Shown here one piece after another: positions 16,550 to 20,714 of a stretch of 64,000 bases of DNA. The stretch lies in contig JAHHIH010000002.1 in NCBI GenBank assembly GCA_019358835.1, positions 310,001 through 374,000 on the forward strand, given 5' to 3'. Below the pieces are notes generated by a model. It saw only the letters and a program-made list of their open reading frames with translations, ran no database searches and was not told where the DNA came from. Numbering within the stretch: position 1 is the stretch's first letter; every line of letters starts with the position of its first letter. Source of the DNA: Tildeniella torsiva UHER 1998/13D. GTDB taxonomy: Bacteria; Cyanobacteriota; Cyanobacteriia; Phormidesmidales; Phormidesmidaceae. Made by a program: the position numbers and the translations under genes.

Positions 16550-18895
16550 ATGCCCAACCCCAAAGCTCAAATCCAGGCCATTCTGAACGACCTGCCCGAT
16601 GCTGACCTGGAACAGTGGTTGGCCGCATTACAGGGGGCACCCCTCACGCAGATCAACCTGGGGCAGGCCAAGGGGTATCAGGTCATGGTGCAGGGTGGCA
16701 TCGCCTATGTTGGCGACCAGCTTCATGTAGATGCGGCGGCGCTAGAAGCGGTGCTAAACAAGCTCATTACAGAACGGCAGCAGCCCCAAATCAGCGGCAT
16801 CCCCAACAACTTGCCCCGCAGCGGCACTAAAAAATTTGTGGGCCGCGATACCGACCTCGACCGAATTCACACCCAACTGCATGAATCGGATTGCATTGCC
16901 ATTATCGCCGTTCGCGGTATGGGTGGTATTGGCAAAACCGAGCTGGCCCTGCAATACGCGCTGTACCACCGAGATCAAGGCACCTACCCCGGCGGCATTT
17001 GTTGGCTCCAGGCCAGAGAGCAAGATGTCGGTAGCCAGATTGTCGGGTTTGCAAAATCAGTGGGCATGTCACCCCCTGAGGGTGAACTGGCTGACCAGGT
17101 GAAGTATGTGTGGGCACAATGGCCCCTGGCCCCTGCTGCCATGCTGGTTGTCTACGACGATGTGGCTGACTACGGTCAAATTGAACCCTACCTGCCGCCT
17201 GAAAGGCGCTGCCGAGTGCTGCTCACCACTCGGCAGCGCCTTTCAGGGCTGGCTAGCCTAGAACTCGACGTGCTTAGTTTAGAGGCAGCGCTAGATCTAC
17301 TGCGCTCTGTTGTGGGGGCAAAGCGCATCAATGCTCAATTAACTGAGGCCGTAGCCCTTTGCGCCCGGCTGGGGCACTTGCCCCTAGCGCTGGAACTGGT
17401 GGGTCGCTACCTGGAGCTAGATGAAGACTTGACCATTGTAGAGGTGCAGGCCGAGCTAGATGAGATGCGTACCTATGCCTATGCCCTGCTAAAAGACGAG
17501 TCTGCGGCTACCATGACGGCAAAGCTAGGGGTAGCCGCAGCGTTTGAGCTGAGCCTGCGGCGATTAGACAAAGCCAGCCAAACCCTCGCCACTCTGCTAA
17601 GTTTGTTTGCCGCAACGCCTATTGCTTGGGAGTGGGTGCAGACCTGTTTGGCTGACGTGCCAACGTCTACCCTGCGACAGCAGCGCAATAAGCTGCTGCA
17701 AAACAGTTTGCTACAGCGCGTCGATCAAGATGTTTATCAGCTGCATCCGCTGATTCAAGAATTTTTGCGGGTGCGGTTTGCTGACTTAGATAGCACTGCA
17801 CGCCTTCAACAGAGCTATTGCAAGGCCATTGCTCAAGCTGCTAACCAAATTGGTCAAACTCAGACTCAGAATGACATATTGCGGCTCATACCGCTGATTC
17901 CCCACATTGAAGAGGCCGCAACGACCTGGCAGCGGTTTTTAATTGATGAGAATGTTATCGACCCTGCCAATAGTGTTGGGTTGTTTTACTACAGCCAGGG
18001 AGCTTTTCGCGAGGCCCAGCCGTGGTTTGAAATGGCATTGCAAAGCGGGCACGATCGCCTCGGCGAGGCCCATCTCGCTGTTGCGACCAGCCTGAACAAT
18101 CTCGCGGGCTTATATCGATCGCAGGGGCGCTACAGCGAGGCGGAACCGCTCTACCAACGGGCGCTGGCGCTGATGAAACAGCTCCTCGGCGAGGCCCATC
18201 CCTCTGTGGCTCAAAGCCTGAGCAATCTCGCGGGCTTGTACTATTCGCAGGGGCGCTACAGCGAGGCGGAACCGCTTTACCAAGAGGCGCTGGCGCTGAT
18301 AAAACAGCTCCTCGGCAAGACCCATCCCGATGTCGCTACCAGCCTGAACAATCTCGCGACCTTGTACGAATCGCAGGGGCGCTACAGCGAGGCAGAACCG
18401 CTCTACCAAGAGGCGCTGGTGCTGAGGAAACAGCTCCTCGGCAAGACCCATCCCGATGTCGCCACCAGCCTGAACAACCTTGCGCTCTTGTACTATTCGC
18501 AGGGACGCTACAGCGAGGTGGAACCGCTCTACCAAGAGGCGCTGGCGCTGAGGAAACAGCTCCTTGGCGAGGCTCATCCCGATGTCGCCCAAAGCCTGAA
18601 CAATCTTGCGCTCTTGTACTATTCGCAGGGACGCTACAGCGAGGCGGAACCGCTCTACCAAGAGGCGCTAGCGCTGAGGAAACAGCTCCTCGACGAGGCC
18701 CATCCCGATGTGGCTGGTAGTCTATGGAACCTTGGCGCATTGAGATGTAACCAGGGGCGTTTAGAAGAGGCGAAATCGCTGCTTCTAGAAGCGCTGCTCA
18801 TTTATGAAGCGAAACTAGGCCCAGCGCATCCCAACACTCAAAATCTGAAAGGATGGGTTGCAAGGGTTCAAACAGCTCTGGATGCCGCTAGTTAA
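16550..18895 (+). CDS. NB-ARC / TPR protein (bacterial NLR-like STAND ATPase)
   Basis: A 781-residue STAND NTPase. Domain order: a short helical N-terminus (1-30); the motif GYQVMVQGGIAYVGD (42-56) shared with the preceding gene; an NB-ARC module from FVGR (96) with Walker A GMGGIGKTE (123-131), Walker B MLVVYDDV (198-205), LLTTR (224-228) and GHLPLA (275-280), and an MHD-like LHPLIQEF near 400; then TPRs of 42 residues from about 490 to the end. The TPR units are nearly identical in DNA. Proteins of this design sense a ligand through the repeats, oligomerise, and pass a signal through the N-terminus; several act in phage defence. Lacking an effector domain of its own, it probably works with the small protein encoded just upstream. 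Confidence 0.88.
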   Translation: MPNPKAQIQAILNDLPDADLEQWLAALQGAPLTQINLGQAKGYQVMVQGGIAYVGDQLHVDAAALEAVLNKLITERQQPQISGIPNNLPRSGTKKFVGRDTDLDRIHTQLHESDCIAIIAVRGMGGIGKTELALQYALYHRDQGTYPGGICWLQAREQDVGSQIVGFAKSVGMSPPEGELADQVKYVWAQWPLAPAAMLVVYDDVADYGQIEPYLPPERRCRVLLTTRQRLSGLASLELDVLSLEAALDLLRSVVGAKRINAQLTEAVALCARLGHLPLALELVGRYLELDEDLTIVEVQAELDEMRTYAYALLKDESAATMTAKLGVAAAFELSLRRLDKASQTLATLLSLFAATPIAWEWVQTCLADVPTSTLRQQRNKLLQNSLLQRVDQDVYQLHPLIQEFLRVRFADLDSTARLQQSYCKAIAQAANQIGQTQTQNDILRLIPLIPHIEEAATTWQRFLIDENVIDPANSVGLFYYSQGAFREAQPWFEMALQSGHDRLGEAHLAVATSLNNLAGLYRSQGRYSEAEPLYQRALALMKQLLGEAHPSVAQSLSNLAGLYYSQGRYSEAEPLYQEALALIKQLLGKTHPDVATSLNNLATLYESQGRYSEAEPLYQEALVLRKQLLGKTHPDVATSLNNLALLYYSQGRYSEVEPLYQEALALRKQLLGEAHPDVAQSLNNLALLYYSQGRYSEAEPLYQEALALRKQLLDEAHPDVAGSLWNLGALRCNQGRLEEAKSLLLEALLIYEAKLGPAHPNTQNLKGWVARVQTALDAAS
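17198..17247. repeat. Perfect 21-bp inverted repeat inside the NB-ARC coding region
   Basis: The left arm CCTGAAAGGCGCTGCCGAGT(G) at 17198-17218 and the right arm at 17227-17247 are exact reverse complements separated by 8 bases. The region encodes PPERRCRVLLTTRQRLSG, a conserved part of the NB-ARC domain, so both arms are under protein constraint. This makes a perfect 21-bp match unusual. It could form a strong mRNA hairpin. Confidence 0.9.
18061..18816 (+). repeat. Six tandem 126-bp TPR units
   Basis: Units start near 18061, 18187, 18313, 18439, 18565 and 18691. The first five are nearly identical and the sixth is diverged. Each encodes 42 residues with the core SLNNLAxLYxSQGRYSEAEP and the tail KQLLGEAHPDVA. 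The DNA similarity is far higher than protein function needs, which points to recent duplication or gene conversion. Confidence 0.9.
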
Positions 18896-18916
18896 AACGG
18901 GTATGGCTGTCGCCAA

Positions 18917-18974
18917 AAACCGGGTTTCTTTGCCTCCAGCCTAGCCCCCACACCCCATCCAAGAAACCCGGTTT
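18917..18974. repeat. AAACCGGGTTTCTT inverted repeat after the NB-ARC gene
   Basis: The arms AAACCGGGTTTCTT (18917-18930) and AAGAAACCCGGTTT (18961-18974) are exact reverse complements with a 30-base spacer. The AGAAACCCGGTTTCT motif is a common dispersed repeat in cyanobacteria. It starts 22 bp after the NB-ARC stop and could end the transcript, although there is no T-tract. Confidence 0.75.
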
Positions 18975-19182
18975 CTCCCCCCGCCAGCATCCCCTTCCGC
19001 GTAGGTTGCTGTCGCGCCCTCACCATCCCCCACAACCCGCAACCCCCTCCGCTAGCCTACTACAATAAAAAAAACGGTAAGTCAAATAGATAGAACCACT
19101 CCCTTGAGCCACATCTTGGAACGCAGCCCAGATAAAGTCAGCGGTAAGTGAGTATTTCGTGGCACTCGTGTTCCCGTAGCTG

Positions 19183-19207
19183 CCATCTTTGAAAACTTCA
19201 AAGATGG
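19183..19207. repeat. 11-bp-arm hairpin in the 18.9-19.7 kb gap
   Basis: CCATCTTTGAA and TTCAAAGATGG flank AAC. There is no adjacent T-tract. The 848-bp gap between the NB-ARC gene and the next gene holds this hairpin, the repeat at 18917, and two MITE-like copies. I see no gene in it. Confidence 0.7.
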
Positions 19208-19248
19208 TGCCTCATTCGATTAGTTTCTCGAGTGGTTTCCTGGTGTCA

Positions 19249-19389
19249 CAGGGCAAACGCATACTGATTTAGAGATAACGAAAAATAAGAGTTTCAACGA
19301 TCAGCAGCCTGTAAGATACCGATATTTTCGCAATAATTCATCCCAAAGCTGATCTTACTGCGAAAATATTGGAGTATGCGTTTGCCCTG
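19249..19389. mobile_element. MITE-like element, copy 1
   Basis: A 141-bp non-coding element with exact 17-bp terminal inverted repeats, CAGGGCAAACGCATACT and AGTATGCGTTTGCCCTG. It is flanked on both sides by CCTGGTGTCA, an apparent 10-bp target duplication. Inside is a second inverted pair (CGATATTTTCGCA / TGCGAAAATATTG, one mismatch), so much of the element can fold back. Ends starting CAGGG and 8-10 bp target duplications are features I associate with the ISAs1 family; that parent is a guess. Confidence 0.82.
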
Positions 19390-19399
19390 CCTGGTGTCA

Positions 19400-19541
19400 C
19401 AGGGCAAACGCATACTAATTCAGGGCCAACGAAGGAATCAGGAGTTCAACGATCAGCAGCCTGTAAAATGCCGATATTTTCGCAATAAGGTACTCCAAAG
19501 CGGGTCTTACTGCGAGAATATCGGAGTATGCGTTTGCCCTG
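19400..19541. mobile_element. MITE-like element, copy 2 (tandem, same orientation)
   Basis: A 142-bp element with the same 17-bp ends and the same internal hairpin as copy 1, but with many internal differences. It begins one CCTGGTGTCA after copy 1 ends and is followed by a third CCTGGTGTCA. The order repeat, element, repeat, element, repeat suggests insertion into an existing duplicated target, or a tandem duplication followed by divergence. Confidence 0.82.
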
Positions 19542-19743
19542 CCTGGTGTCACCCGTGCCTAGGTGAAGGCACTTATCTATAGTAAAGTAAGAGGGCTATG
19601 AGCTTTTGTCGCAACCAACTGCAACTTGCGATACCAATAAAACTTAAATGCACTACGGGTGAAGGAGAAATTCCAATCTCTATAAAGATTTTGTATTTGT
19701 AGCTGGGAATCTTGAGAAAACCATCTTGAGAGGCACCAACCTT

Positions 19744-20217
19744 ATGACCAGCAACTACATCAGCGCCACCCTTTCCCTGCAAGACCGCGACGCGATCATG
19801 GGTGCGATCGCCCTGATCCGCGATCGGCTCCCCTTCGTCATCGACGTAGCCCCCAAACTGAAAAAATCCATGCCCAAAATGGGCGACAAAAGCCGCGCCT
19901 TTGTACAAAAAGCTCTCGATGTCGCCATCCAGCACCCCGACTTTTTGCCTCGCTCCTTCGACATCGCCGAACTCCAGCGCGACGTCCACCTGTTTGAGAC
20001 CATCTACCCCCTGGCTATGGCGATCGCCCAGCTCCAGGCCGACCTCGACGACACCCTTGCCGCTGTCGGCAGCGACGCCTTTACCGCCGCCCTCCAGGTC
20101 TATCGCCACGCCAAAGCCCACGGCGACGGCAGCGGCCTCGACGCCCTAGTCGAAGATCTGGGCCAGCGCTTCGATCGCCAGCCCCGCAAAAAAGCCCCCG
20201 CCGAAGCCGCCATCTAA
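19744..20217 (+). CDS. Conserved protein of unknown function
   Basis: A 157-residue helical protein. The stretches LPKL/MPKMGDKSRAFVQKALDVA, HPDFLPRSFDIAELQRDV and AVGSDAFTAALQVYRHAK match a conserved family of unnamed proteins found in cyanobacteria and Bacteroidetes. There is no signal peptide, membrane helix or metal motif. I chose ATG 19744 (MTSNYIS) over an in-frame TTG at 19726. It is monocistronic, with the MITE-bearing gap upstream and the convergent usp gene downstream. Confidence 0.75.
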   Translation: MTSNYISATLSLQDRDAIMGAIALIRDRLPFVIDVAPKLKKSMPKMGDKSRAFVQKALDVAIQHPDFLPRSFDIAELQRDVHLFETIYPLAMAIAQLQADLDDTLAAVGSDAFTAALQVYRHAKAHGDGSGLDALVEDLGQRFDRQPRKKAPAEAAI

Positions 20218-20309
20218 CGGCAAAACCAAATCCGCCAACCCCAATTGCCCCACTGTCTAATCAAAGTCAGTGGGGCATGTTCTTGATCAAACTTGCAGGG
20301 CCAACGCCC

Positions 20310-20714
20310 CTAAGGAATAATCAGCACCGGACAGGGCGACAGGTTGATCACCCGCATGGTGACACTCTCATTCTGCACGTCTTCAATCAGGCCCACGCCC
20401 CGGCAGCCCATCACAATGAGATCGGCGTTGAGTTCGTCGGCCACATCGCAGATTACAAAGGCGGGCTGTCCCTCGCGCTCAATCACTTCGGTCTCAATGC
20501 TCTGGGCCGCAAACAGGGCCTTGGCCTGCCCCAGCAGCTTAGCCACCGCCTCGGGCGACGACTGGGCCGAAGGCTGACTCGCCTCCTCCCTCGGTTCAAC
20601 GACCGACAGCAAAACCAGCCGACTCTGGTGGGTTTTGACCAGCTCAGCCACCTTAGGAGCCGCCTGCTGCGCCTCAGAACTCATGTCGATGGGAAATAAA
20701 ACCGTCTTGAACAT
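20310..20714 (-). CDS. Universal stress protein (UspA family)
   Basis: A 134-residue single-domain USP. It begins MFKTVLFPIDMSSEAQQA and ends with LIVMGCRGVGLIEDV...SPCPVLIIP, the usual first strand and nucleotide-loop regions. The loop reads GCRG...NES, so the last glycine of the strict ATP motif (G-2x-G-9x-GS/T) is replaced. ATP binding is therefore uncertain. I chose ATG 20714 because the longer frame adds 15 unrelated residues. It is transcribed divergently from pgk. Confidence 0.88.
   Translation of the reverse strand: MFKTVLFPIDMSSEAQQAAPKVAELVKTHQSRLVLLSVVEPREEASQPSAQSSPEAVAKLLGQAKALFAAQSIETEVIEREGQPAFVICDVADELNADLIVMGCRGVGLIEDVQNESVTMRVINLSPCPVLIIP

Follow-up and report, generated by a model that had tools for sequence, protein, structure and literature searches.

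Tandem MITEs of an ISAs1-family insertion sequence in Tildeniella torsiva, with modest evidence for reuse of a resident element's tip as insertion target

The window studied here (64,000 nucleotides of Tildeniella torsiva UHER 1998/13D, contig JAHHIH010000002.1, positions 310,001 to 374,000) contains two short elements, A and B, that possess the same ends but differ inside, and that are framed and separated by three identical copies of the 10-bp repeat CCTGGTGTCA. The locus raises the question of what these elements are and how two different ones came to share one target repeat. An earlier note on the window, made from the letters alone, described two elements of 141-142 bp with identical 17-bp ends and three 10-bp repeats; this layout was confirmed, and its coordinates are exact. 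The features, in window positions, are as follows.

19113-19248, + strand: left part of a decayed DUF433 gene, the insertion target (PF04255; aligns to relatives)
19239-19248, no strand: 10-bp target repeat, copy 1, CCTGGTGTCA (direct reading)
19249-19389, + strand: MITE element A, 141 bp, with perfect 17-bp terminal inverted repeats (direct reading)
19319-19372, + strand: inner hairpin of A, arms 19319-19336 and 19355-19372, 89% complementary
19390-19399, no strand: 10-bp target repeat, copy 2, separating A from B, CCTGGTGTCA (direct reading)
19400-19541, + strand: MITE element B, 142 bp, identical to four further copies in the genome
19471-19524, + strand: inner hairpin of B (fold and family comparison)
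19542-19551, no strand: 10-bp target repeat, copy 3, CCTGGTGTCA (direct reading)
19552-19597, + strand: right part of the decayed DUF433 gene (PF04255; aligns to relatives)

The 17-bp ends, CAGGGCAAACGCATACT, are 100% complementary in A and in B, while the two elements as wholes are alike at 120 of 142 alignment columns and differ at 22. In the 5.84-Mb genome the exact 17-mer has 30 occurrences, 13 of them forward and 17 reverse, and the same 17-mer read backward, used as a control, has none, indicating that the ends are not due to chance. No open reading frame of at least 80 amino acids overlaps either element, both being only 141 or 142 bp long. The genome contains six MITE copies, namely A, B and four others. 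A is the sole copy of its kind, and B and the four others are identical over 142 of 142 positions, giving five identical copies. Each of the four solitary B-type copies is flanked by a different repeat that is perfect over 10 of 10 bases, TAGAAGGCCT, TAGTGATGGG, GCCACTACCC and GGGAGTAGGG, so that several copies with target repeats of the length made by an insertion sequence (IS), as expected of type I MITEs, are present. Beyond this genome, B finds matches (E <= 0.001) in 14 of the 63 genomes of the taxonomic family, belonging to 3 of its 14 genera, a count that includes partial matches, the weakest of which (G019) is probably unrelated. The elements are thus not confined to a single genome; a lack of copies in any other cyanobacterial genome was what the earlier note had named as counting against its MITE reading. 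Fifteen different full-length copies could be aligned over 143 columns, and the parts conserved among them are the ends and the inner hairpin adjoining one end. A host function of these MITEs is improbable here.

The remaining 18 copies of the 17-mer identify the partner IS, which the earlier note had expected elsewhere in the genome. They start 124-127 bp from a contig end, indicating that the assembly breaks off inside a longer repeat. All 18 contig ends bear the exact 17-mer, and all 18 encode termini of an ISAs1 transposase, 11 N-terminal and 7 C-terminal (tblastn with the protein of the same-genus genome G015; E 5e-18 to 0.004). Their inner sequences fall into two IS types. When the ten bases outside each contig end were compared, seven pairs matched at 10 of 10 positions in reverse complement, each pair consisting of the left end and the right end of one IS type; the four ends left without partner (C17, the end of C28, C39 and C45) are all left ends. 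The ISAs1 transposase profile NF033564 has no match in this genome, which is expected if the IS bodies are missing from the assembly. The partner IS is therefore unassembled in its own genome and known as 18 contig ends. As a side result, the identical 10-bp repeats reveal contig joins in this assembly: C2/C5, C5/C6, C11/C40, C14/C47, C19/C21, C24/C41 and C44/C48.

A complete IS is found in G015, where two copies of 1,211 bp with identical ends are flanked by the 10-bp repeats GCTTCCTGAC and GGGGGCGGCT. Its transposase of 376 amino acids matches NF033564 with 431 bits (cut-off 70; E 2.3e-129) and also PF13808 and PF01609. Target repeats in the ISAs1 family range from about 8 to 10 bp. Both marks of the family are thus present: the family profile matches the transposase of G015, to which the termini in the own genome correspond, and the 17-bp inverted ends go together with target repeats that measure 10 bp in all seven rejoined pairs and in both G015 copies. 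The family assignment in the earlier note, drawn from the ends and the repeat length, holds, as does its 10-bp target duplication, which is perfect around the solitary MITE copies and the rejoined IS pairs alike. Its MITE reading is likewise borne out by further copies with their own 10-bp repeats and by ends that are those of a co-resident IS. A and B share the exact 17-mer with that IS, whose autonomous form is seen in G015 only, and are type I MITEs of an ISAs1-family IS. What they have in common with the G015 element is the ends alone: an exact match covers 17-18 bases, and against its right end 21-22 bases align at 95%. With significant alignment limited to these 17-22 bp, the interior of A and B is, as judged by sequence comparison, no deletion form of the G015 IS; the elements differ in this from an otherwise close likeness to ISAs1 insertion sequences and their type I MITEs, which extends to the 17-bp ends beginning CAGGG, the 10-bp target repeats and the ISAs1 transposase termini of the co-resident IS.

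Good descriptions exist of type I MITEs whose partner IS resides in the same genome, MITEAba12 of Acinetobacter (PMC6382973) being one example; a review also covers them (PMC10969869). MITEAba12, a 113-bp element, has the ends and target-repeat length of the co-resident ISAba12 and is said to be moved in trans; it differs from A and B in belonging to a different IS and in its 9-bp target repeat (PMC6382973). The word "tandem" does not occur in the accessible part of that paper, and that of the review mentions neither ISAs1 nor tandem or nested elements. In Anabaena sp. 90, an ISAs1 IS is listed and 147 MITEs were counted (PMC3542288, in part); its type II MITEs resemble A and B in being cyanobacterial and in interrupting genes, but their ends have, according to the authors, no evident similarity to IS ends, whereas those of A and B match exactly. 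The accessible part of a further paper (PMC9208149) gives neither ends nor target length. A tandem of ISAs1 MITEs with a common target repeat is not described among the matches listed from the open-licence literature, which is no proof of absence. Ends that match exactly, together with the target repeats and the empty site, here tie a cyanobacterial MITE family to its transposase. Target choice in the ISAs1 family has, to our knowledge, been little studied, and natural tandem pairs, unequal ones included, make it testable.

The insertion target itself is a decayed gene. Reading through both flanks, with stops written as X, yields a PF04255 match (E 4.9e-15), that is, a DUF433 gene, which we take to be antitoxin-like. 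The comparison with an empty site that the earlier note proposed was possible in the same-genus genome G008: the alignment of the flanks runs unbroken through the junction and continues into the following gene, the elements are missing, and the repeat is present once, with one base changed. The alignment likewise crosses the junction in G013 and G023. G024 (L145) has an intact DUF433 gene and, behind it, an open reading frame that matches DUF5615 below threshold (19.7 bits, cut-off 23.8); the two are presumably a toxin-antitoxin pair. In the window, positions 19113-19660 hold the decayed DUF433 gene followed by sequence that aligns with the intact DUF5615-like frame of G024, and we assume this to be a decayed toxin-antitoxin-like locus behind the NB-ARC/TPR gene. 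The latter, an NLR-like gene at 16550-18895, ends 343 bp ahead of the first target repeat. The elements had been placed just behind an NLR operon, which is right as regards the nearby NB-ARC/TPR gene, but the flanks themselves are those of the decayed DUF433 gene. Apart from its distance, nothing found here links the NB-ARC/TPR gene to the MITEs.

Comparison of the interiors bears on how the tandem arose. Between the ends, A and B are alike at 86 of 107 positions, while A is alike to the copies of two other species, G007 and G010, at 92 and 91 of 107, and B at 95 and 94 of 108. As each of the two is closer to these copies than to the other, duplication in place followed by divergence is unlikely, in agreement with the earlier note, which had not considered them a fresh duplication. 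By these comparisons A and B are likely separate lineages of the MITE family; fork support near both is low in the MITE tree. The identity of B with four other copies indicates that B is recent and probably the later arrival. On the reading that we prefer, both elements would have been moved in trans by the transposase of the co-resident ISAs1-family IS, which has the same 17-bp ends and 10-bp target duplications. A would have landed in the DUF433 gene, already decayed or decaying afterwards; later B, a member of the five-copy subfamily, would have entered the exact 10 bp abutting the right tip of A and thereby duplicated A's 10-bp repeat once more. The transposase would most likely favour the tip of a resident element together with its 10-bp flank as a landing site. 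To this history of trans-mobilised ISAs1 MITEs, with B inserted after A at the flank of a favoured tip, we assign a probability of about 0.68.

Similar junctions were found in other genomes. When genome contigs were scanned for exact pairs of 9-base tips with 10 bp between them, 41 stretches with 42 junctions emerged, and the 12 loci in which both ends are alike over at least 14 bases or so were followed. Most of the 29 stretches left aside share only about 10-13 tip bases; among them are also L088, with 15, and five with at least 18, Sediminibacterium L077, L080, L086 and L111 and Armatimonadetes L110, which were rejected for spacers that are palindromic or nearly so. A single stretch in viral contigs, whose ends become unlike those of A and B after about 14 bases, was taken as chance. 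In six of the 12 loci (Akkermansia G461 and G462, planctomycete G465, Bacteroidia L106, Riflebacteria G466 and Okeania G468) the spacer recurs, at 10 of 10 bases, at an outer position, on one side only in five and on both sides in planctomycete G465, where the left outer copy has no recognisable end after it. In the other six the outer copy is found on neither side, several of these junctions lying near a contig end and being hardly informative for that reason. The right-hand element of the Bacteroidia pair contains ISAs1 transposase sequence, indicating that transposase-bearing elements can take part. Since the contig scan had the spacer fixed at 10, spacers of 0-30 bp were searched with exact 9-base tips in 340 cyanobacterial genomes (the order of G463). 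Junctions were found in six genomes, with spacers of 10, 10, 10, 10, 17 and 23 bp, so that the spacer is 10 in four of six, or three of five without the search centre; these four include the centre genome and the already known Okeania. The spacer-10 junctions share 16-18 identical tip bases, and the 17- and 23-bp cases only the nine searched. G772 has another tandem whose copies belong to the MITE family of A and B; they are alike at 128 of 144 positions, with outer repeats of 9/10 on the right and 6/10 on the left. In G941 a 127-bp MITE adjoins a truncated ISAs1 element (tblastn E 1e-24 and 2e-11), with outer repeats of 10/10 on the left and 5/10 on the right.

Orientation speaks for an alternative to insertion at a tip. 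All six pairs that can be judged, those of this genome, G772, Okeania, Riflebacteria, Bacteroidia and Akkermansia G461, are head to tail (the last three by alike right ends only), which counts against independent insertion, since this should yield both orientations, and is what slippage between repeats would predict. One element and its 10-bp repeat might accordingly have been duplicated by slippage or unequal crossing-over to give A-A, one copy then being converted from a B elsewhere; the Okeania pair is identical (153/153), and four identical possible donors for B are at hand. Inverted pairs, as long palindromes, may be unstable and could be lost for that reason. A hint of mixed orientation comes from Desulfohalobiaceae L160, where an element's right end is similar to the left end of the element two places further on. 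Duplication requires two rare events; B equals the other copies over its full 142 bp while differing from A at the columns given above, and the neighbours in G941 are different elements. Insertion is kept ahead of it because, for A and B, duplication also requires conversion over the full length, and we consider the duplication history unlikely. Two independent insertions into the same 10 bp, by chance or through a favoured target sequence alone, are less probable still. A mild base preference does exist at insertion sites: at 14 symmetrised target sites (12 from the own genome and two from G015) no base of the repeat carries more than 0.27 bits, while the base immediately next to it carries 0.42 and a value of 0.52 is reached nine bases outside. 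So weak a preference suggests that the reuse is probably not due to target sequence alone, and sequence preference was rejected as its cause. With 17 known insertions in 5.84 Mb, we calculate a chance of about 5e-5 that any two of them occupy one site in register, and the identical 10-bp spacing recurs elsewhere, making this history very improbable.

The least probable alternative, to which we give hardly any credence, is that the repeats are not mobile DNA but represent a conserved structured RNA or a regulatory element. In its favour are the strong folds of the whole elements, with z-scores of -7.2 (A) and -8.6, and the retention of the inner hairpin across the 15 aligned copies. One pair in this hairpin is U-A in six copies, G-C in five and broken in four; the RNAalifold covariation term (+0.11) is not favourable, so that the pattern is not strong evidence for RNA, and templated repair of palindromes could produce the same one. 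Inverted ends fold back in any case, so that foldback is expected; the copies are identical, lie at different sites with their own 10-bp repeats, and are missing from the empty site of a relative. A search of positions 18500-20500 against Rfam (E up to 1) gave no match. Of the conserved structured RNA that the earlier note had named as the finding to speak against it, the conserved inner hairpin is thus present, but a match to an RNA family is not. On the - strand, the facing tips with their 10-bp spacer (19373-19416) can form an 18-pair terminator-like stem and contain two promoter-like matches spanning repeat and tip; a role of the element as terminator or promoter was rejected, as the counts are near those of shuffles.

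Insertion of B at the tip of A, the reading preferred above, leads to the wider conjecture that ISAs1-type complexes recognise a resident tip and cut exactly 10 bp out, where new copies dock, so that arrays with 10-bp spacers arise by a self-targeting rule across several phyla. We hold this only tentatively, at rather less than even odds. IS911 is reportedly inserted in a targeted manner next to inverted repeats, its transposase being said to favour the end of a resident element as a landing place, which resembles the reading given here; it is said to belong to the IS3 family, with another spacer and pathway, and is no relative of the ISAs1 elements. Several observations stand against tip targeting. 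Tandems are rare: a phylum sample searched with up to three mismatches had a junction in 1 of 386 genomes and the Akkermansia family, searched with spacers of 0-30 bp, in 1 of 195, the one genome being the own genome in the former case and the search centre in the latter. Other spacings exist too, those of 9, 2 and 0 bp having been met once each in 11 further-searched genomes drawn from the 12 loci, that of 0 bp lying inside a 10-bp case whose spacer starts with CAGGGCAAAC. The poorer outer sides of G772 (6/10) and G941 (5/10) and the lack of an outer spacer copy in 6 of 12 loci count in the same direction. Taken together, A and B are well supported as ordinary MITEs, and there is modest evidence for target reuse by ISAs1-type elements at the tips of resident ones.

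Some further arrangements were noted in passing. In Akkermansia, L162 (G462, positions 2549 and 2800) holds an element with CAGGGCAAAC as its own target repeat, a hint that it entered the tip of a resident end. Desulfohalobiaceae L160 (G460, positions 324 and about 517) has at least three elements in a row, with ends CAGGGCAAAACTGGAT and two different 10-bp spacers. In Sediminibacterium magnilacihabitans (L077, L081, L086 and L107), CAGGGCAAA tips surround one and the same palindrome, GGCTTAAGCC, in several places, and these repeats look like a family of another kind.
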